NCBI RefSeq assembly: GCF_000313135.1
Contig: NW_004457313.1
Span: 671,292-735,291 of the forward strand
From: Acanthamoeba castellanii str. Neff
Lineage: Eukaryota > Discosea > Longamoebia > Acanthamoebidae
Reading direction: 5' to 3'
DNA length: 64,000 nt
Shown: piece after piece, positions 1 to 64,000 of the stretch
Layout: every line of letters starts with the position of its first letter
How positions within the stretch are numbered: the stretch's first letter is position 1
Made by a program: the position numbers and the translations under genes
The notes under the pieces: model-generated
Told to the model about the DNA's origin: nothing
The model's database searches: none
Seen by the model: only the letters and a program-made list of their open reading frames with translations

Positions 1-1106
1 TCTGCGACCCGCGCCGAAGAGAGGGTACACGAAGCGTTATGCGGTTAGCGAGTAAGAACACCAAACACGGTCGTGGAATGAAAGGCGGCGAAGAGCTCGA
101 GCGGGGGCACGGAAGCTACGTACATCATGCACTTTGCCAGCCTTGCCGAAGAATTCGAAGAGCTCCGACTCACTCGCGCGGATGGGAAGATTGGACGCGA
201 ACACGGTGCGCTCGTCCCGATCGGCCTCCTCGGCCTCCTTTTGCTTCCTCCTCCGTTCCTGCTCTTCGGGAGTGAGTATCTCGTCATCTTTACCTGCGCC
301 ACGACGATCCCTGTCTCGCCTGCGATCGCGGTCTCGGTCCCTGTCGCGATCACGGTCGCTGTCCCGGTCTCTGCCCCTGTCACGGTCCCTCCTGTCTCTT
401 CCCCGGGGTGAGCGAGAGCGAGAGCGCGAACGACGCGAACGGCGATCGCGCGACCGGGAACGTGAATGCCTCCTGCTTGCGCGTAGAGGGTTAGCGATAC
501 TGTTCAGGGGAGAGGTATTCGCATGGGGAGTGTGAGGGGGGGTGTAAACCTGCGCTTGTGCCTATGACGGTCGCGGGACCTGCTACGCGATTTAGACCTG
601 CGTAGAAAGAAAAAGAGATAAAATTAGATTGTTTTTGGGGCTGGGCAAATTGGTGTCCTCGTTGGTCAGTTAGCCAAACGGGGCGCAGCCCAAATTCGCA
701 AAACCTATAGAAATTTAACCGGCGTTCCTAGAGCGAGAGATGAGTGTAAATACAAGCGAGCGCCGGGCAGAAGCCATGATTACATTGTCGAGATGGAGTA
801 AACACGTGCGCATGGTAAGAGGATTGATTGATTACCTTCTCTTCCGGTGTTTGTCGTCCTTGGAGTCGGATTTGGACTCCTTCTCACTTCTACTCACTTT
901 GTCGTGTGCAGATCCATTCTTGCTTACCTCTGAGCTGGAAGATGCCTCTTGCTGCGGCGCATCCTGCGAGAAATAGAGCGCGGTCAGAATACGCGATCAA
1001 GAAAATTGTGGAGTAATCTGTTCCAAGGTGTGAAAGGTACCTTATGTGTCTGTGTGGACTTCAGAGAAGCCTCAAGAAGGGCCTCCACATCGAGATCGTC
1101 GGCCAT
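1..1106 (-). CDS. RBM39/CAPER-like RS-domain splicing factor (5' part, cut by left window edge)
   Basis: The first exon (1041-1106) starts MADDLDVEALLEASLKS, closely resembling the start of the RBM39 family. The next exons are 928-963 (acidic/Ser) and a short ESKSDSKDD exon. After a larger intron (about 600-837) comes a long Arg-Ser/Arg-Asp domain, itself interrupted by an intron at about 477-553. Then comes TPEEQERRRKQKEAEEADRD and the opening of an RRM with the RNP2-like element TVFASNLPIR and FFGKAGKVHDV. In the family the RS domain is followed by RRM1, RRM2 and a C-terminal UHM. Only the RS region and the first half of RRM1 lie in the window. A phase-0 donor follows KVHD and the intron runs almost to position 1. 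Predicted role: nuclear pre-mRNA splicing factor or coactivator. Plus-strand reading frames in the RS region are shadows. Confidence 0.85.
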
Positions 1107-51024: not shown

Positions 51025-53189
51025 CCACTGGTGCTGCTGGTGGCGGTGTGCTCCGGCGGTTGCGGTGCGCGCGAGAAGGAGTCGAGGGTGGCCTGGAGCT
51101 GCAGGCGCGTGGCCTGGTCGATGAACAGCTCCGAGTGGCGCAGTCCCTTGTATCCCGCCGCCTGCTTCTGCCGAAGCTGGTCTTCGACGTCATCTCCGTG
51201 GGGCTGGTGTGGCGGCGGCGCGTTGCTGCTGCTGCTGCTACTGCTCACGTCGTCGTCGTCGTCGTCGTCGTCGTCAAGATCGTCCCGGGTCCCTCCCGAC
51301 AGCAGGGAGGGAGACGAGGCCGAGACGGGCGGCCGAGGCGCAGCTGGCAGGACGTAGGCAACCGCCGGGAATGAGCACGAGCGCGACTGGGTCTGCGCCT
51401 GCACGACCGGCTTGTGCTCGGTGCTCGCGCTCGGTGTGGAGGAAGACGACGTGGTGGCGGGAAAGGGCGCCGAGCTGCTGGTGCTGCTGGTGGCGGTGGT
51501 GGCGGTGGTGGCGGTGATGGGCAGGGACTTAGAGCCGAAGAGGAAGCTGCCCTTGGACTTGCGGCGGAGCAGGGGCGAGGGCTGGTCGTCGAAGCGGGCG
51601 AAGACGAGGGCCAGGTACACCATCACGCACTTCTCCACCTCTTCGGAGCGCACGCCCGCCTGCAGCTGCAGCGATTCCACATCTGCGCTCGGTTCCCCCT
51701 TGGTGCGTCAGCATTGGATGGTTGGTGTGGGTTGTTGCCCCTTCAATGAAGAGGCACAGAGAGGGAGAGGAGGAGTACCGACGAGCTTGGGCACGCCCCA
51801 CTTGCGGCGAAGCAGGCGGAGGGCGCGCTTCAGATTGCCCCGCTTGTCCTTGGCATCCAGCCCCTCGACCTCCAGCACCTCCGGACATTGCCTGCGTAGG
51901 CCACCAATCAACAATAGGCCGAGGCCGAGGCCCAAGTTCATCATTGCACGCGATTGATCGACGACGAAAAGGAGGAGGAGGAGGAGGAGGAGGGTAGGGC
52001 CGCGGTGCGTACCGGTGGATGAGTGCAGAGAAGAGGGTGCCATCGCTAAAGTCCTGCTGGAAGTTGCTGATCGCCGCAGCCGCCGCGGCCACGGGCGCTG
52101 ATGACAAGGCCACGGAAGTGCGCCCGCCCTCTCTCGCTGCACTGGTCTCGTCTCGGGCGAGGAATCGGGCGAGCTTGTCCTGCAGCGCGCGCCGCACTGC
52201 CGCCACTGCCGCTCCCTGCCCGTCACTCCCGCCGGCGCCGCGGCCCCGGGGCGACGTCGGGGCCGGGAGCAGCGCGCGGAACTGGAAGTGGAGTGCGAGA
52301 GCCCACAGCAGCCCCAGCACTGCCGCCGCGTCTCCGTCCCCTAGCCGCTCTGATCAACCGCCCCAGGTGTGCGCACCCCACGCGCGTCCGTCCGCCTTAC
52401 GTGAGCAATCCACGTCATCACCACCTGCCAAGTGCCGCCGCCGCCGCCGCTGTAGATGATATGTGACACACGTACCGGCCGAGCAGTCGTCGGAGAGGGG
52501 AATGGCGAGCGTGTGCCGCATGAACCGCTGCAGCACCACGTGGTTCGACACCTGCGGCGAGGCACGCATCGTGTGTGTGCGTGCGTATGCCGTGCGTGTG
52601 AGAGATCCCTGACATGTTGCGTGGAGGCGTTCGCCAGCGAGGAGCACTAGCGGGGAGTGCGGTACCTTGTGGGAGCGCGAGCGTGGCTTGTCGTGAGGCA
52701 GCGGTGGGAGTTTGTCGGCGACGTCGGGGGCAAGGCCGGCCAGGAGCCACGCCAGGCCCGACCCGCCCGCCACCCCTGGTGACATTCCCGCGCCGCGCGC
52801 CACATTGGCACGTCGTGTGAGGAACATTGATGCCGTGGAGAGCACGCTTGAGTTCGCTTCGATCGAAGAGAGGGTGGGGGGTTACCGGGGAGGAGGTCGG
52901 GCAGCTTCTTGCCGCGCTTGGCCACGTGGTAGTTGCACCACCGCCCCCAATACTATTTTAGACAAAAACACGACACACGTACGTTATGTACACGTGCCCA
53001 AGAAAACGGCGTACACGCCAGCGGAAATGCCCCCAAGTGTTGGTGGGGAGCGGGAGGAGGGGCCGATCTTTTCACTCTCTTTTCCTTTTGTGTGTCCGGT
53101 GCAGGTCCCCTACAGGTTGGGAAAAGCGGGGGGGGGAGTACCTTGACGAGCATTCGACATTCGTCAGCAGACCACGGGGGCGACGCCAT
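46952..53189 (-). CDS. Giant tandem calponin-homology (CH) actin-binding-type protein
   Basis: The start is MASPPWSADECRMLVK. CH1 is spread over WGRWCNYHVAKRGKKLPDLL, GLAWLLAGLAPDVADKLPPL, NHVVLQRFMRHTLAIPLSDD and VLGLLWALALHFQF. CH2 follows with DKLARFLARDE, NFQQDFSDGTLFSALIHRYR, VEGLDAKDKRGNLKRALRLL and KCVMVYLALVFARFDDQ. The tandem order suggests an actin-binding domain of the filamin/alpha-actinin kind. Beyond it the protein is mostly low complexity: Ser, Asp, Gln and His runs in several exons (about 49.1-51.6 kb). Helical segments lie between them, such as ELVGRMLELASLFRQNTTAS, RQLLRTITRALQVTAAKLPL and KAVLDAAEKYLQCAIPLVSA. It ends AVSAQKPSSAG-stop at 46952-46954. No filamin or spectrin repeat was found. 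The region could be split into two genes, but no in-frame start plus promoter gap is seen. Confidence 0.72.
47551..47625. repeat. Coding hexanucleotide (GATGTC)n run
   Basis: About 12 perfect copies. Read on the minus strand in the CH-protein frame they encode an alternating Ser-Thr chain near the C-terminus, followed by SSSGSG. This kind of coding tract is likely to vary in length between strains. Confidence 0.92.
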
Positions 53190-53425: not shown

Positions 53426-56400
53426 CTAGCCTCGCTTGCGTTCGAGGGCGGTCAGTAGCCAGTCGAGGCCCTCGTAGAGCCCGTCGCCTGACGCCGGGCA
53501 CCATCACCGCCAATCAGTCAGTTTTTAACAAGAGACCAGGGTGGTGTCGAGTGGGACGTGTGCGTGGGGGGGGGAGTCATCCAAAGGGACAGTAGTGGAG
53601 CGTGTGTGCGTACCGGTGGGACCGCAGCACGGCTGCAGGTGGTACGGCATGTTGCGCAGCCTGCCCAGCTCCAGGCCCTCGGCCACCTTGGCCGGGGTCA
53701 TGGCCTGTGCGAGTGCCAATGGGTTGGTTTTCGGGGGAAGGGGGTATACCCCACAAGAACAGCGGCAGTCAGGGATGTGTGAATGTGGGTTGGGGGTTGG
53801 TTGGTGTGGCAGGGAGAGGGTAGCGTTACACAGGGCAAGTCCTGCTTGTTGGCGAAGATGAGGCACACGCAGTCCCTCAATTCGTCGTCGGCCAGCATGC
53901 GGTGGAGATCGGCCGCTGCCTCCCCGATGCGCTCCCTTTGTTGGAACCAACGTCACACCGGTGAGGGGTAGAACAAAAAGGGTCTCCGGGGGAGGGGCGT
54001 AGGCTCCGCACGCACCTGTCGTTGGAGTCCACCACCATGACCACGGCCTGCGTGTTCTGGTAGTAGTGCCGCCACAACGGCCGGATCTGGATGACGATGA
54101 CGGCGAAGAAAAATGGTAATAATAATAAAAAAATGAGACAGCGATCTCGGGCAGGGGTGACCAGCAGAGGATCGGGTGTGGGGGTGCCTTGTCTGGTCCT
54201 CCGACATCCCTGCCGGCATGCAGGAAGGACATTGGAGGAGAGTGGCGCGTCGGTAACAGCGTTGTTCGGAGTGGGTGGGAGGTGGGGGGGAGCGAAGGCC
54301 CGCGTACCAGAACGTGAGGTTGTGGTTGCGGTGCTCCAGCGTTTCCACGTTGAAGCCTGCCGGGAGGGGCGCCACGGTGAGCGTCTTGGGGGGGGGGGCG
54401 GTGAGGGGCGCTGGGATGCGAATGCATACCAATGGTGGGGATGGTGGTGACGACCTCGCCCAGCTTCAGCTTGTACAGGATGGTCGTCTTGCCTGTCCCC
54501 CCCAATAATGGCGCACGGGTGAGATGACGAGGGGAAGAACGCTGTGGATGGGCGCGGACGTACCAGCAGCGTCGAGCCCCACCATGAGGATGCGGGCCTC
54601 GCGACGGCCCGTGAAGAGGCGCCCCACGAACGAGCGTCCGAACAGGGAGGCCAGTCGGCCTCCCTTGCTCGCGCTACTCCCAGCGCTCTCGCCCCTGCGC
54701 GCACTCACCACCGATCAGAGGAGAAGCCGCAAGGCCAAGGATTGTGTGCGTCGGCGAGTGCGGACCCAGAGATCCTTCCAAAGGCGGTCTTGAAGGCGGC
54801 CTTCCACGGCTCTCGGCGCTCGGCAATGTCGTGGGCCTCGGTGGCCACCTGCGCGGGACTCATCCAGGGCGTCTGCGTGCGCCTCTGTGCCGCGAACAGC
54901 GCCCGCCACAGTTCGTCGTCTGTGTGGTCCCGGACCGAGTCCGTGTCAGCACAGTGCAGTTGTGCGTGCTCGAGCAGAAGCACGGTGTTCGAGGCCCGCG
55001 CGCGCTGACGGACGGACGCACGTACCTTCGGCGATGAGCTTGAAGGTCGAGTTGGTCTGGGCGAGCTGAGCGAGGCTGCGCACGTCCAGGAGGGAGAGCA
55101 CCGAGTAGAGGAGCTCGTTGGGACACACCTCAAACCTGCCCATGGCCGACGCCTCGTGCGCCTGCCTGGCCTCGGTCGCCTGGTGGGCAGAGATAGGCTC
55201 GTCTGCATCAAAAAAAAAAAAAACCTGTTAGCCCGCCAACTACGGGGCAGCTGCCATCGAAAATCTCGGGCGGTGGCGGTGGGCGGTGGGCGGTGGGCGC
55301 GAACGCGTCACGCGGCCGCACCGATGAGCAGGGCGGTGTGCAGCCACCCACAGGCCGCTCCCACCACACGCTTGCCGCGCAGGGAGGCCACGAGGCGGGG
55401 CTCCAGCTCGTCCTGCGTGGTGTGCGAGTGTCCCAGCTGACCGTACTTGCCTCCTGCGGGGACCCAAGTGGTACATAGCCCCGGCGCACGCGTGACCACC
55501 GCACACGTCAGGGAACCCGAGAGCAGAGCAGAGCACAGCACAGCACAGAATTCGAGCAATTCCACGCACCGCCCCACGTGTAGCAGTCGCCCTGCGCAGT
55601 GATTGCGACAGAATGGGAGACGCCGAGGCCGCCGCCGCCCGCCACCTGGTCCTCGCGGTGAACACATCATGAGGTGCGGAGGAGGTGAGGAGGGCGGACC
55701 GGACGAGCAAGGGGGGCAGATCACGCGGGGCAGAGAAAATGAGAGACCGCACCTGCACCACGGGTACGTCGAGCAGGGCCTCGACGCGGGTGGGCGTACA
55801 GCAGTCCAGGCGCGTGCCGTGGCCCAGCTGGCCGTGCTTGCCCTGAGTGTGTCGGAAGCGCCCTCGAGGTGAGTTGCACATGGATCGTGGCCAAGGGAGG
55901 GAGAGAGAGCGCGCGCGCAGATGGGAGGGGTAACCTGGCCGAAGGAGTAGAGGGCGCCGTCACTGGTCACGCAGAGCGAGTGGTTGTCCCCGCACGCCAC
56001 CCTCCGCACGTGGGAGAGCCCCGGCACCAAGGTGGGCGCCTTCACCTGCTCCGTGTTGCCCGTGCCGCACTGAGACCACACCACCCGCCCCACCAGCCAC
56101 CACCATGCAGAGACCGGTGTGCACGCCGTGAGCAAGCACCGCGCACCACCAAGCGTCATCGTCGTGGCCCACCCAATGGGTGTGCGTTGTCCAGTTGGGG
56201 GCACGCACCTGGCCGTGCCTATTTTCGCCGTACGCAAACACGTGGCCCCGATCTGAGGGCCCGAACGGCGTGAGTGAAGCCCAAAGGAAGCTGGGAGTGG
56301 GGGGGGAGAGAGAGAGAGAGAGAGAGAGGCGGTTGCTGCGATGGTGGAGGAGGAGGAGGAGGAGGAGGGGTACCGGTGAGGAGGAGCACGTGGGAGCCGC

Positions 56401-59400
56401 CGCACGCCACCTGGGTCACGGAGAGGGGACTCTCGGTGGAGGGGCACTCCACGAGCCGCATCTGGGTGTCACGCCCGAGCGTCCACTCGTAGACCAGCTG
56501 CTCCTCTGCGGGTGTTTTGTTGAAAGAATGGAGGTGAGGTGGTCAGCTCGGATGGGCGATGTGATGGCGGTGGTGGGCGATCCTACCGGTGAGAGCCACG
56601 GTGGAGAGGGCGGTGGAGGCCAGCTGAACCACGTGGAGGCCGCGGAGAGGCAGGAACGGATGGGGCGCGGTGGCTCCCTTCTGGGTGGGCGCCGATTCCT
56701 CGCCCCACAGGTAGACCTCCTCCGTGCCTCGCTTGCCTGCAGGTCACCACAAGACCACATTGCAAACCATGCCGCACGCCCACCCACGTCCGCGCATGTC
56801 AGGAGGAGCTGTGTGTCAGGATGAGAAAGGGGGGCGCGGGGCGTACCGCCGTGGGTGAGGGCGGCGGTGTGGAGGCAGGCCGGCGCGAGTGCGGCGGTTT
56901 GTCGGTGGGCGAGACCTCGCACGAGGCGCGGAATCAGCTTCCCCTCGCCGAAGAAGCGCCACGTCGCTCGCTCTCCCTCCCCGCCCCACTCGTACGCCAG
57001 ACCCTCTGAACCCTCCGTCACACGCGATCACACACGACACACACACACGATACACACGACCGCCGCATCGCCGCCACCAGTGATTGGAATTCAATCGCTA
57101 TCTGCGTATGTGTCCGCTCGCGACCGTGCCAAGAGAGAGAGAGAGAGAGAGAGAAGGAGCTGGGGAGTAACGTACGAGCAGTGAGGGCGTAGGTCTTGGC
57201 GCCCGCGCACGCCACCTGCACGACCTGGGCGGAGACGAGGGTCGGCACGATGGTGGGCTCCGCCGATTGGCAGAGCGTGCCGAGGCCCAGCTGCACGTGC
57301 GTGCCATATGGGAAATTGTGAGGGGGGGACAGGCACAACCACCTCCAGCACCCGCGCGGGCGTGGCCCTCTCGCCGAGAGAGGCGGATGGACGGATTGGA
57401 TGGGTCCGCGTAGGGAATGGATGGGCGCACCTGGCCGTGCTTCCCGAATCCGAAGGTGTAGACCTTGCCGTGGGAGGCGATGCTGCCCTCGGAGAAGCGC
57501 GGCCCGCGGCGAGCCAGCAGCGCCTTGCCTGCCCCCACGAGTGCAGCCCATCAACCACACGCAGCCGACAGAAATATAATATATATATATAGAGAGAGAG
57601 AGAGATATCAAGGTATAGATCGGTGAGGACACTGTCTGGCGAAGGTGGCGCGGGCAGCGCGTGGAGAGCGGGAGCCAGGCACGCACCGAGCACGCACTGG
57701 AAGGCAAAGTGTGCGGGGTAGGAGCTGCCCACGCCCTTGCCCCCGATGACCAGAAGGCGATCGCCCCAGCCACCATCTTGTGATCCCTCCGGCCCGATGG
57801 CCACTGGTCCCATTGCGGCGGGGCCACGCAACCTCCGCCGTCGTTCCTCCCGCGGCCCGTGCCGAATCCTCCCTCGGCCGCGTGATCGTCTTCGTCTTCG
57901 TTGTCCGCCAGCTTTTCTTTCCCCTTTAGGGCGGCGGTGGTCGACCCCTTCGCGGCGGACGTGGAGGCAGCAGCCACGTCGGCGGAGGAGGAGGAGGAGG
58001 CTGGCCCGAGGCATGTCCAGACGTGGGAGTCGAGGTCGAGGACCCACAGGTCGTCCAAGCAGCGCCCGCCCCGGTCGCACCCGCCTGCGTTGTAATATAT
58101 TTATATATAGATAGATAGATATATAGATAGATGGATAAATGTATAGATGCAGTGGTAAGCCGCACCGTACGAGGTGAACGCAGATGATTAGCAGATGGGG
58201 GATGGGGGATGGGGTGGCAAAGGGGAGCAGGCACCGAAGACGAGCATGAGTCGGGCCTCGTAGAGGGTGGCGGCGTGCCGGGTGCGGGGCGCCGGAAGCG
58301 ACCCGAAGCAGGGAAGACGCCGCCAGCTCCGCGTACCTGCCCTCACCCCACCCCAATCGCGATCAGCGTCAGCAGTTCCACGACCCGACTGGCGAGCGCC
58401 GAAGTGAGCAGGTGCCCGTACCAAAGTGGTAGACGTAGACGGAGTTGGCGTAGGTGTTGTCCTCGTCGACGCCTCCAAAGACCCACATGGCCCCGTCGTG
58501 CACTACCGCCGTGTGGCCATACCGGTTGGGTACCACTCCCGAGCCCTGCTCCACCTCCCACTCCCCGCGATCTGGCCCACGCGCGACACACGACACACAG
58601 GAGACATGTGTCAGACCGAGCTTATCCAGCCCGCGGACACCGTGAGCAGGCTTGTGGTCGGTTGCATGTACCGAGGGCGTAGCGGTAGAACGGCTGCGCG
58701 CTGTGGGAGCCCGAGGCGGCGTCGCACCCGCCGAACAGGTAGAGGTGACCCGCGCCTCCTCTCGATTCGGCCAATTTGCCTTCCTCCTCGTGAAGGTCGT
58801 CGCGTGCCAGGCCGTGCCACACCAGCGTGTGCCCGCTCCTGGCGCTTGGCACCGCCCCCTTGCTCGGCAGACGCGACCACACACCCATGTCTGCGCACAC
58901 GACACACACGACACACACGACACACGCACACGATACACACAACGACATGCTTGTCAATCCTGCTTAAGACCCATTCCCGCATCCCGCGTGCGGCGTCACT
59001 AGTGACAAGCCCCGAACGTGCAGTAGGTGGTCGGTAGTAGTAGGTAGTAGGTAGTGGCGAGTACGATAAGGAGGGGACGTACCAAAGCTGTAGCTGTAGA
59101 GGTCGTCGAAGCCCTCCTCACCCTGACCTCCGTGGATAAACCTGACAGCAACAGCAACAGCAGCAGCAGCAGCAACAACACATACATGTCAGACATTGGT
59201 GCGGCCATCTCCGGGCTGGGCGGGCGGGTGGAGAGGGGCAGTTAAAAGAGTACATTTTGGTGGCCGTGGCGGCGGCTGCGTGCGAGCTGCGAGGGGCGGG
59301 CGCCACGCCGCCGGTGGCACGCAAAGCTCCGGCGGGGAGGAGTGGCGGCAGGCTCTCCTCTTGTGCGTGTGTGGCACCTGCCTCGCCGCCGGCGCCCAGG

Positions 59401-59863
59401 TCCCATCGCCACAGGGAGGCGGTAGCGGCGCGTGCGATCCCGTCGTAGCCGCCAAAGAGCCAGCAGCGCCCTACCTGCGCTCCACACCAACACACCACAC
59501 ACACACCACACATAGAGAATACAAGTATAGATCACGCACCCACGACAAACAACGCGACAGTGTGAGCAACACGGCCGTTCTGTTGTACAATATAGGTTCG
59601 ACGCGCAACGAGGGCTATGCCCTTGCGGGGTGTGCCTGCCGCCTTATTTGGCGCATCGTGAGGAAAAGAGGGAGGAGGGGCGTGTGGGGCGGGCGTGCCT
59701 GCGCCACAATGGAGTGGTCGGCGAGGCGCATTCCTTGCGCTGCTGTCGTGCCGGCAGCCTGCTGCTGTTGCTGGCGCACTACGAAGGGAGCCCACCCGCC
59801 GCTGGCCAGGGGGTGCTCTGCCTCCTCCTCGACTGGGTGCTGGTGCTGCAGGGGGGCTTCCAT
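53426..59863 (-). CDS. Kelch - RCC1 - F-box - ARF GTPase fusion protein
   Basis: Reading from 59863 ([20 protein letters not shown]): kelch repeats come first ([76 protein letters not shown]). A split Gly codon then leads straight into RCC1 repeats ([72 protein letters not shown]). The next exon (55026-55202) stays in frame and holds an F-box ([33 protein letters not shown]). Exon 54766-54919 ([16 protein letters not shown]) joins by a 71-nt intron to exon 54564-54694 and the ARF domain. ARF motifs are [36 protein letters not shown] and [11 protein letters not shown]. No ATG precedes the ARF part, which supports fusion. The catalytic switch-II Gln is Pro (codon 54194-54196). Likely a ubiquitin-ligase substrate receptor tied to a G protein. 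Confidence 0.78.
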
Positions 59864-60311
59864 ATATTGGTTGAATTATTGATTGCTCGCTGTCCCCCAG
59901 CCCCTTTGCTTTTGTTCTCCCGCCCTTCTACGTCGCCTGGTGCAGCTGGCGAAAGAATTCCAAATATGTCACCAAGATGACGGTGATTGGTGGAGCACTG
60001 GTAGTAGCCAAAACTAACAAATTCATCACCACCCGGCGGCACCCACCTTGTTCGTGTCTGCTGCGCCCCCAGGCAAGAACTCTCCATGTTGGCGACTTCT
60101 TCGACAGCGCGGCGCCTACCCCCCACAGGTGCCCCAACCCACTCTCATTTCGCGGGGCATATGATGCCCTCACTTCACGTGAAGTACAAACATGTTTGGG
60201 GGTGGTGCGTGGAGAGAAGAGCAAATTAATTTATATTTATTATTATTATTATTGTTGTGTTTTATATGGTGACTTACGGGCGAGAAATAATAATAGTGTA
60301 CAAATTAGGAA
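59864..60311. other. Divergent intergenic region
   Basis: About 450 bp lie between the kelch-RCC1-F-box-ARF gene (minus) and the ankyrin-RhoGEF gene (plus). An AT-rich patch with TTATTATTATTATT lies at about 60237-60255. No coding exon or RNA gene was recognised. It probably holds both promoters and possibly a missing first exon of the plus-strand gene. Confidence 0.5.
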
Positions 60312-61908
60312 TTGGGGGTGGTTGGCAGGGCACTACTAACTTGTAACGTTGTTTGGGGGGGGGGACAAAATGCAGCAGCAGCAAGTACAGAAGGGAGGGC
60401 GACAGGCGAGGATGGCGGGAAAAAGGGCCACGACGACAGAGCAGCAGCAGCAGCACTGCGCGAGGAGGTGGCCCTCCTATGGGCCGAGCTGCGCGAAGAG
60501 CGCCGCTTGCGCCTCGCCCTCGAAGCCCGCCTACACAGCGTGCTCCCTCAGCTAGCTGCTACTGCTGCCGCTGCCGCTGCCGAATGCGCCCCCGCCACTT
60601 CCACCGCCACTTCCGCTTCTTCTCCTCCTCCTCCTTCGTCGTCGTCGTCATCGTCACCGGGCACGTGCTCGACAGTGGTGGTGCCCGTGGTGGTGATGCC
60701 CACCGACGATTCTTCTTCCACCGTCGTCGCCGCCACGGGCACCACCACTACTACTTCCTCTCCGGCCCCCTCCCCTAAGGAGCAGCAGGTGGAGGGGCAC
60801 CAGCAGAGCGAGCAGGGCGGGTCGAGCACGCCAACGTCGATGCCGTCGTCACCGTGGTCGTCATCGTCGTCGCTGCTGGTCCCCGTGCAGCCCTCTCCTC
60901 CGTCGACGTCGACCTCGCCGCACTCGACCCTGCGGCGCGCCACCCCGATCGGGTCCCTGCGGCGAGGCGGCGCCGAGCAGCAGGAGCACGCCCAGCAGCA
61001 GCAGCAAAAGGAGCCGCAGCCCCCCCAGTCGCCGGAGCAGCGGCTGGAGAGCGTGGAGAAGCGGCTGGCCAGCCTCGAGGAGAACGTGTGGGCTCTCTCG
61101 CGGCCCGGCCAGCTCCAGCCCGCCGCGTCGGGCCTCCTGAGCAACCTCCTGGGCCGCGTCGACGACAAGACCAAGTCCAAGCGACGCGTACGCCCGCCCT
61201 CCCGCCCTCCCTCCTTCCTCGCCTGGCTTGGCCTGGCCTCTTACCGTCGCTCCGTCGTGCCGGCTGCCCGCGGGGCCGCTGCTTGTCGTTGCCATGTCGT
61301 GGCGACCGCGCGTGGCGTGGTCTGTGGTATGCGCGCACGTGTGCTAAGCAGACCGTGAGGGACGCGAACAAGGGCGGCGCGGAGGGCGACAGCGACGACG
61401 AAGCGGGGAGCGCCCTGTTCGACCTGAGCCCGCAGGAGCTGGCCGAGCTCAAGGAGCGGACCGCCAACCGGTCCGTGCACGCCATCGTCAAGGACGGCAG
61501 CCTCAGCCAACTGCGCGTGCGTGCCCCCCCCCCAACACACACCGGGGACTTGCCATTCAAGCGGCGACGACGACGACGACGACGCACCTCCACGCATGCA
61601 TGACGTGCAGCCACAACCAACCACAACCAACCAACCAACAGGTCAAGGTGGCGGAGAACGTGGGGCTCATCAACCTCAAGGACGAGGAGGGCCAGACGCC
61701 GCTGCACGTGGCCTGCCTGGAGCATCCGGTCAAGATGGACATCGTCCGGTTCCTCCTCGCCAACAGCGCCGACGTGAACGCCGTCGACAGCAATGGATGG
61801 TCGCCCCTTCATGCCGCCTGCAAGAACGCCCACGGCAACGGCGATCTCGTGCGCCTCCTCCGTACGTCGCCACCACCCACCCACCCACCCACCCACCCGC
61901 CATCAGCA

Positions 61909-61940
<32 letters not shown>

Positions 61941-64000
61941 ATATGGTGCAGCATGCGTGCGGGCCATTGGCCTCACCAGCATGCATTTGTGCGTGCGTGC
62001 GTGCGTTGGGGGTACAGTGAATAATGGAGCGGAGGCGTCGCTGGCCAACTCAGACGAAACGCGTCCCATCCACTACTTCGCCCGCCAGGTACGCCACCCA
62101 CCCAACCCACCCAACCACGCGGAGGTCGAGCTGCGTCATTGTGAGTGCGCGCGCCAGTGTGGCACCTCGCACCACCAGCCACCACCACCACCACCACCAC
62201 CACCATGATGGTTGCCGTACCGTACCCGTCTGACTCGTGCTCGCCGCGCGCACGTATGCAATGTGTGTGTGTGTGTGTGTGTGCACCTAGAATTTCAGCC
62301 CCGAGCAGCTCCCGTCCTTCTCCAAAGCGCTCCACCTGCTCCTGGCCAAGGGCGCCGACCTCAGCCACACCAACCGGTGCGGCACCTCTTAAGAGCCTCT
62401 TCCCCCCATCCCGACCCCTCCTCCGCATCCCTCCCTCCCCCCCATCACACACGTGCATGCGTGGGCGCGTGGCTCACCGGCGTGTGTCATGTGCCGCGTG
62501 TGGGCGCAGTCACGGTGAAACGGCTCTCCACAACGCGGTGATGTACGCGTGCAACGAGGTCGCCATGTTCCTCCTGGCGCACAAGACGGCCAACCTCCAG
62601 ATCCGCAACATGTGCGTGCTCCCCCTCCCCACCTCGCCTGCCCCATGTCGACGCGTGGTTTGGTTGGGCGGCTCCTTCACTTACCATCGCCCTTCGTCGT
62701 CCCTTATCGCCGGCATCATCTTCTCCATCTTCGTCCATCATCATCATCACATCATCATCATTTGCGCCACTTCGTTGTCGTCGTCGTTGTCGTCCACCAT
62801 AGCTACGGCGAGACGGTGCTCAACTACGCCATACGCAGCTACAAGAAGGTAAAGGGGCTACCCTCCCCCCGCTGCACTCACGCGAAGCACACGCCCGCTC
62901 GTCCCCCCCCTCCATCGCGTTGGTGTGGTGGTTGTGCTGCTGCTGCTCACTACCGTGTGCCCGGTCGTCAACCCCGCGTCAACAGGAACTGGTGGACAAG
63001 CTGCTGGAGCTCGGGATGGACCCGCGCCAGCCCGACGACCGCGGCAACAAGACCGCGCTGCAGGTGGCCGCCGGCCTGGGCCTCCCCGCCAAGGACATCT
63101 TCAATCTCCTCAAAGGTACCTGCGCCGCCTTCTCCCTATTATTCCCCCCCCCCAAGGGTTATTAATATCGTGTGCGGGTGTGTGCGTGGCTGCAGCGCGA
63201 GCATCGGCGCTGGACATGAAGGACATGACCCCCGAGCAAAAGACTCGCTACCGCATGGTGCGCACCAGCCCCACCCCACCACCAACCACCACCACCACCA
63301 GCCACATCAGCCACCCACCAGCCACCCACCACCAGCCACCACGACCACCACCAGCCACATCAGCCACCACCAGCCGGGGCCTTTCCTACCATCGAGGGAG
63401 TGGGGTCTGCCCTGCCTCTGTCTGGCTCTGTCTCTGATCTCCTTCTCCTTCTTCTTCTTCTCTCCACCCGCCCGCCCGCCCACGCGCGTCCCTAGAATTT
63501 GGCGATTGAGGAGATCATTACCACCGAGACCGAATACCTGCAGGACCTGCGCGTCCTCATCTCCGTACGCGCCAGCCAGCCCCCCCCCTCGCGCGTCGTG
63601 ACAACTCGATCAACCCGGCGCTAAAACTCGGGCTGTTGCCGTGTATGGCGTGTGCGCATTGGGTGGTGGGTGGTGGGTGGTGGGTGGTGGTGGTGGTGGA
63701 GCGCAGGTGTACGTGGAGCCGCTCAAGAAGAATCAGCAGGACGACTCGGCGGCGACCAAGATCCTCACCAAGATGGAGATGCAGTCCATCTTCGGCAACG
63801 TGGAGCAGATCTACCAGGTCGCCTCCGACTTTGTCCGGTACCACTTGAGATCTTATTTTCTATACTCCGCTATTTATACGAAATCCTACCTCCCTCCCTA
63901 CCTACCCGCTACCTCCCTCCCATGCACACGCGCGCGCCTCTTGCACGTGTATGTGTGTGTATGTGTATGTGTGTGTACGTGCCTCACCGCCCCCATCAAC
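60312..64000 (+). CDS. Ankyrin-repeat RhoGEF (DH domain) protein, cut by right window edge
   Basis: The open frame begins near 60312, but its true start is unresolved: ATGs at 60370 and 60411 are in another frame, and the first in-frame ATG is at 60696. The N-terminus has a predicted coiled coil (LREEVALLWAELREERRLRL), then long Ser/Thr/Pro runs and a second coil (RLESVEKRLASLEENVWALS). Ankyrin repeats follow: INLKDEEGQTPLHVACLEH, VNAVDSNGWSPLHAACKNA, LANSDETRPIHYFARQ, HGETALHNAVMYACNEVAMF, SYGETVLNYAIRSYKK and RGNKTALQVAAGLGLP. A DH domain then begins with NLAIEEIITTETEYLQDLRV, VYVEPLKKNQQDDSAATKIL and MQSIFGNVEQIYQVASDFVR. DH domains exchange GDP for GTP on Rho-family GTPases. A PH domain is expected beyond the window. 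Confidence 0.82.

Follow-up and report, generated by a model that had tools for sequence, protein, structure and literature searches.

ARF proteins are usually treated as small single-domain switches; TRIM23 (ARD1) is the known exception on the side of ubiquitin, and its ARF domain likewise lacks the usual glutamine. As described in the available part of PMC5794181, TRIM23 joins an E3 ubiquitin ligase and a C-terminal ARF GTPase in one chain and is an example of functional coupling between a ligase and the ARF it carries; no paper on the TRIM23 variant K458I was found in the open-access literature. A second system is HERC1, a ubiquitin ligase with RCC1-like domains (RLDs) reported to act on ARF, of which, according to the accessible text of PMC6692442, ARF1 interacts with RLD2, and ARF may be made to release GDP by RLD1. 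Among more than 2,000 ARF family sequences, Vargova et al. (2021) counted 75 multidomain proteins with extra domains including F-box and BTB, and the parts of the article available to us call multidomain ARF architectures, ARF–F-box fusions included, generally lineage-specific (PMC8358228). The words RCC1, Q71, glutamine, and catalytic are absent from its main text in the form available (PMC8358228), and its figures or supplements may list the Acanthamoeba protein described here. ARF–F-box fusions are thus already in print, and we found no paper describing RCC1–F-box–ARF proteins in the main texts of the open-access literature.

The protein studied here is like TRIM23 in uniting a putative ligase function and an ARF GTPase, C-terminal in both, within the same chain. 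Whereas TRIM23 consists of RING/B-box and coiled-coil regions ahead of its ARF, the present protein would be linked to the ligase by an F-box and has propellers of the RCC1 and kelch kinds, and neither RING nor B-box occurs among the 20 Pfam families listed for it. HERC1 differs in being a HECT ligase whose action on ARF is in trans; the present protein carries the ARF within its own chain, and HECT is absent from the Pfam families listed. The Acanthamoeba protein would resemble TRIM23 or HERC1 in its way of working while belonging to neither.

Gene structure and domain content

The locus lies on the minus strand, at positions 59863-53426, of a 64,000-nucleotide stretch of Acanthamoeba castellanii str. 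Neff contig NW_004457313.1, hereafter the window. Our splice model, combined with Pfam searches of its 1122-residue product, resolves a 27-exon gene with the order kelch, RCC1, F-box, and ARF1-like GTPase (Table 1), all four domains being found where the original prediction had placed them. The 26 introns measure between 71 and 224 bases (median 111); 24 have GT-AG borders and two (introns 1 and 23) GC-AG borders. The junctions between kelch and RCC1 (57687/57528), RCC1 and F-box (55322/55202, an intron of 119 bases), and F-box and ARF (54766/54694, 71 bases) are each of the GT-AG type and each split a codon, so that the predicted single frame with GT-AG sites holds at the domain junctions but not over the whole gene, where a one-base frame break in exon 7 (58084-57687) and the two GC-AG introns depart from it. 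Exon 25 ends at 53830 in the same model. The F-box scores 37.5 bits against a Pfam cut-off of 24.3 (PF12937), and the ARF motifs GLDAAGKT (G1), TIPTIGFN (switch I), and NKxD start at residues 964, 985, and 1066, respectively. Third-position GC content of codons is 0.87-0.89 in the RCC1, F-box, and ARF parts and 0.81 in the kelch part. Next to the gene, the plus strand carries a divergent open stretch with ankyrin-like sequence recognized by eye (60300-62700 of the window), and the next downstream gene on the minus strand (52002-52353) contains a partial calponin homology domain (PF00307, 2.5e-5, just below the cut-off).

Table 1. Positions in the window of the gene, its domains, and its sequence signals
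Feature	Position	Strand	Basis and remarks
Whole coding span	53426..59863	-	Splice model; 6438-base genomic span, 1122-residue product with X at the frame break
Kelch propeller, exons 1-7	57687..59863	-	Pfam kelch families, best 4.4e-52
RCC1-like seven-bladed propeller, exons 8-17	55322..57528	-	PF25390 6e-66, residues 459-811
F-box and following linker, exons 18-19	54766..55202	-	PF12937 2e-9, residues 842-882; family profile
ARF1-like GTPase, exons 20-27	53426..54694	-	PF00025 4e-66, residues 949-1115; best PDB match ARF1, 3.5e-75
Hydrophobic, possibly amphipathic 15-residue stretch	Upstream of ARF core, within exons 20-27	-	Helix signal weak here (p 0.19)
Exon 23, G3 motif DVGGPDK with Pro at the ARF1 Gln71 position	54188..54209	-	Followed by GC-AG intron; splice matched by P0001
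Intron 23, GC-AG	54087..54187	-	Partly retained in the Neff protein model P0002, adding 16 residues
Intron 1, GC-AG	59475..59698	-	Splice matched by P0001
One-base frame break in exon 7	57763..57767	-	Frame shifts between kelch HKMVA and DRLLVIGG
AATAAA	53337..53342	-	84 bases beyond the ARF stop

The fused protein is already annotated in RefSeq for the Neff strain as an "ADP-ribosylation factor subfamily protein" (P0002), which contains all four domains under a different splice model. Over six blocks comprising 1018 residues, P0002 and our model have zero substitutions, their differences being confined to differing splice choices: P0002 departs in exons 1, 2, and 7 and is devoid of the end of exon 12 and of exon 13. 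It reads the stretch of the exon 7 break in another frame, with a frame change there too. A second listed protein, the relative P0001 (1115 aa), supports both GC-AG splices and stays in frame across the exon 7 site; upon this comparison we gave up a homopolymer error as the explanation of the break, which may reflect either an error in the assembly or a true allele.

One gene across all four domains

Aligned with the spliced model, P0001 has 1109 matching positions, 5 mismatches, and 9 gap columns, crosses every junction, and is continuous over model residues 413-1112, a span that begins as kelch ends and runs to the end of the ARF. Since its 1115 residues come from a 3498-base contig, compared with a genomic span of 6438 bases, we infer that the source of P0001 is free of introns and cDNA-like. 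The open frame of the ARF exon (ORF 54466-54714) has no ATG ahead of the domain, as originally noted, the first Met being located inside the GTPase core. On the minus strand between 52900 and 60500, AATAAA occurs only at 60241 and 53342, with none inside the gene. The whole window contains 51 copies of this hexamer versus 5.15 expected from shuffled sequences, an enrichment in line with its use as a poly(A) signal.

It is scarcely credible, given these observations, that the splice model merged two or more adjacent genes. Elsewhere in the genome, on contig C234, RCC1 and ARF genes are indeed neighbors, and the F-box–ARF donor (GTCCGC) looks the weakest among the GT donors; against this stand the crossing of all junctions by P0001, the ARF exon lacking an upstream ATG, the gene interior lacking AATAAA, and the same domain order in proteins from separate sources. 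Separate genes were ruled out by P0001 and by that shared order, and the sequences point to a single gene encoding a single protein, as predicted, separate genes being very unlikely. On C234 (153500-159000), an ordinary ARF gene with a Met-Gly start, the motif DVGGQD, and its own stop is followed closely, with no change of strand, by downstream exons encoding RCC1 repeats; these are neighboring genes and not a fusion. ARF and RCC1 matches less than 5 kb apart were found only there and at the present locus, so that a second RCC1–ARF fusion was not detected in the genome (38.4 Mb in 250 contigs; by-eye comparison of 72 ARF and 129 RCC1 matches, with 150 of 221 RCC1 candidates scored).

A protist family of RCC1–F-box–ARF proteins

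The RCC1 plus ARF architecture, a search for which had been suggested together with the prediction, is present in at least 40 of the proteins listed in two homology searches (best 120 of 460 and best 120 of 4471 matches), the two domains being separated by F-box-like sequence. Among the matches listed, the named members come from Acanthamoeba and Pelomyxa schiedti. P0031, with the prefix m51a1, is probably a Mastigamoeba protein. Three further members (P0018, P0030, and P0237) bear the prefixes PhM_4 or PhF_6, which we matched by name to PhM-4 and PhF-6, prokinetoplastid clones according to the available text of PMC7859406; since the prey of PhM-4 and PhF-6 are kinetoplastids too, according to the same portion of the source, contamination by prey would still mean Euglenozoa. 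Among the matches listed, RCC1 and ARF are not found together in any protein of animals, plants, or fungi. A third homology search returned, among the matches listed, mostly tandem ARF fusions and zero further family members. Close relatives are included in these counts (P0001 and P0002; P0024 and P0057), which therefore do not represent independent events.

Pfam detects kelch in P0001, P0002, P0007, and P0028, and the full kelch–RCC1–F-box–ARF order thus extends beyond Acanthamoeba. The order is therefore not unique, contrary to what was suggested by the earlier remark that no described protein with it was known: P0007 and P0028 possess it, and 36 further RCC1–ARF proteins, besides the four with kelch, are found among the matches listed. 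The window protein has all the features defining the family, namely the domain order and an ARF without Gln71. Judging from these comparisons, the Acanthamoeba protein belongs to a family of patchy distribution among protists, with a core made up of an RCC1-like propeller, an F-box, a linker, and an ARF1-like GTPase; Acanthamoeba and no fewer than two further listed proteins add a kelch propeller.

The F-box and a possible link to SCF ligases

Where the RCC1 propeller has ended and the ARF has yet to begin, 34 members and 6 more have a segment with the F-box pattern, the pattern being weak by eye in P0016, P0023, P0063, P0076, P0119, and P0120. At E values up to 0.5, Pfam gave an F-box-like match in 27 of 30 members tested and none in the other 3; matches were weak in the kinetoplastid-type members. 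A profile built from 18 of the 40 F-box segments retrieved 50 PDB sequences at E values up to 1, with F-box proteins first, starting at 1.5e-11. The matches include chains of FBXO3, FBXW7, and Skp2, whereas weaker ones are to Elongin-A and, at 0.79, to one dynein chain. As in the FBXW7-type F-box/WD40 receptors and the F-box/kelch receptors, the F-box adjoins propellers here; in contrast, the listed PDB chains of F-box receptors carry no ARF or RCC1 name, and in the present protein the propellers are N-terminal of the F-box and the ARF comes after it. The genome itself yields 3 Skp1 matches, 21 cullin exon matches, and 20 ArfGAP matches. The simplest reading of these sequences would be a substrate receptor of the SCF type that carries its own ARF. 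Of the receptor with its own GTPase switch put forward originally, the receptor half gains from the significant Pfam F-box, from the solved SCF F-box proteins found by the profile, and from the Skp1 and cullin matches, but the switch half is weakened by the proline that replaces the catalytic glutamine, with which the ARF may not switch normally.

Loss of the catalytic glutamine in the ARF domain

The ARF part clearly belongs to the ARF fold, with G1, switch I, and NKxD all present and the catalytic Gln of G3 replaced by Pro. In an alignment of the 40 listed members, not one has Gln at the position of ARF1 Gln71: Pro takes its place in 26 members and Glu in 10, the other four having Gly (two), Ala (one), or Ile (one). 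Pairwise reading gave Pro in 26, Glu in 9, other residues in 3, and 2 unread, the latter two being Glu and Gly in the alignment; the Gly of P0032 is doubtful because the Gln71 stretch is shortened in this protein. Glu is the residue found in the Pelomyxa and m51a1 proteins. Of 293 ARF domains from 212 other listed proteins, taken as a control, 252 have Gln, 34 have a residue other than Gln or Pro, and 6 were unread; the single Pro belongs to the tandem ARF P0270, in a domain that is incomplete. This set, which includes the second list, supersedes a smaller one of 235 domains (Gln 203, Pro 0). Multidomain ARFs as such therefore retain Gln. The ARF loci looked at in the Acanthamoeba genome have 14 distinct WD.GGQ motifs. 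Tandem ARF fusions of animals and plants, frequent among the matches listed, include some with Arg, Ser, Asn, or another residue at this position.

Studies of HRAS offer a guide to the consequences: Q61P and Q61E hydrolyze GTP more slowly than the wild type, and Q61P did not transform cells (available text of PMC6813200, on Der et al.), so that a Pro mutant is not to be equated with an always-on one. By analogy, slow GTP hydrolysis would be expected of the window ARF; permanent full activity does not follow.

The remainder of the nucleotide-binding site is conserved: Lys30 is found in 37 of the 40 members, Thr31 in 39, Thr48 in 38, and Asn126, Lys127, and Asp129 in 39 with one gap. Each residue of the effector triad (Phe51, Trp66, and Tyr81) is present in all 40. 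This conservation bears on the idea that the ARF might be a non-cycling nucleotide-binding scaffold that serves as an interaction surface rather than as a switch. The absence of Gln71 from 40 of 40 listed members and the additional loss of P-loop or other core residues in P0101 and P0032 would suit such a scaffold, but the nearly invariant P-loop Lys, Thr48, NKxD, and effector triad better fit a state-dependent switch, and we regard the scaffold as rather unlikely. A state-dependent switch that turns off slowly is the form of ARF assumed in the functional model proposed below.

Predicted structure and a possible membrane helix

AlphaFold2 modeled P0005 from a 30-row alignment with a mean pLDDT of 83.2 and a pTM of 0.61, predicting a propeller up to residue 374, helices at the F-box (395-453), then linker helices and the ARF, with a poor switch I; the AlphaFold model of P0001 reached a mean pLDDT of 67.2 and a pTM of 0.46. 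At these pTM values neither model gives a confident relative placement of the domains. The best 50 Foldseek rows begin with RCC1-like domains of HERC2, UVR8, and RCC1, followed by ARFs, RPGR being also a neighbor; no F-box protein is among them.

An N-terminal Met-Gly for myristoylation is absent from the window ARF, which is preceded by ~940 residues and has no ATG ahead of it. Just upstream of the ARF core, an amphipathic signal reaches p <0.05 in 9 of 37 members tested, with a combined p of 1.2e-7 over rows that are related to one another; P0001 has a p of 0.19. Such a stretch would suit a membrane helix retained in some members.

Origin of the family

In a tree of the ARF domain (33 of the 34 members then known and 35 of 36 chosen outgroups after a length cut, with the G3 residue masked), the members do not form one clade: 9 changes are needed, the starred branches force at least 2, and 0% of the bootstrap trees have a single one. 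One clade was nevertheless not rejected (p-AU 0.298), and ARF domain trees fail to resolve the family because the domain is too short. A tree of the RCC1 region likewise splits the members (4 changes), with one clade again not rejected (p-AU 0.108); it holds 29 of the 40 members and 9 of 13 RCC1-only proteins chosen from 23 such matches, has one row only 27% filled, and brings long branches together. In a joint-region tree of all 40 members, those with Glu fall into two supported groups. Of the 40 members, 32 have a loop rich in Gly within their RCC1-like domain, against 0 of the 23 RCC1-only matches, by a pattern made after the family had been seen.

Several independent fusions of RCC1 and ARF, with Gln lost every time, would account for the failure of the members to group together in either domain tree. 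We consider them unlikely, since one clade is unrejected on either domain and the domain order, the F-box position, the loss of Gln71, and the Gly-rich loop travel together. These shared characters instead lead us to favor one origin, which the trees neither show nor exclude. We would extend this tentatively, and with more doubt than confidence, to an ancient family of eukaryotic ubiquitin-ligase receptors that predates the split of Amoebozoa and Discoba and was later lost from well-studied lineages, its membrane-directing ARF having been fixed by the replacement of Gln by Pro (Glu in Archamoebae).

Proposed function and significance

Our functional model, which we hold with about even confidence, is that of a substrate receptor for SCF whose slow-off ARF attaches it to membranes or effectors, within a protist RCC1–F-box–ARF family. 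Docking on Skp1-Cul1 is the most likely role of the F-box, which would make the protein an SCF substrate receptor, and the propellers would select the substrate. With its catalytic Gln lost, the ARF should hydrolyze GTP slowly and resist the ordinary turn-off by ArfGAPs, and could then position the ligase by tethering it to a membrane or an effector for long periods. The RCC1-like propeller may also act in cis on the ARF, as the RCC1-like domains of HERC1 are reported to do on ARF1.

That cis activity could even be the main one, with the RCC1-like domain serving chiefly as an exchange factor for its own ARF and the F-box directing the ubiquitination or degradation of its own chain, so that the protein would be a self-timed ARF devoid of outside substrates. 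Precedents are the action of the HERC1 RLDs on ARF1 (available part of PMC6692442) and the ubiquitination by TRIM23 of its own ARF domain, which triggers GTP cycling (available part of PMC5794181), but RCC1-like propellers also bind many partners that are not GTPases, UVR8 and RPGR being among the Foldseek neighbors, and we judge a purely self-timed ARF improbable.

A family joining an SCF adaptor, an RCC1-like propeller, and an ARF that always lacks the Gln would allow the coupling between membrane traffic and ubiquitination to be tested directly on single purified proteins. The position equivalent to Gln71 is a cancer hotspot in Ras, and the Pro and Glu found at the Gln71 site are natural variants of that position. 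If the spread over Amoebozoa and Euglenozoa reflects descent, the family would be a candidate early ARF paralog, one left unnamed in the available main text of the eukaryote-wide survey. If the family is indeed ancient, its members would constitute a standing link between membrane identity and SCF-dependent ubiquitination, with a turn-off that does without ordinary ArfGAPs.
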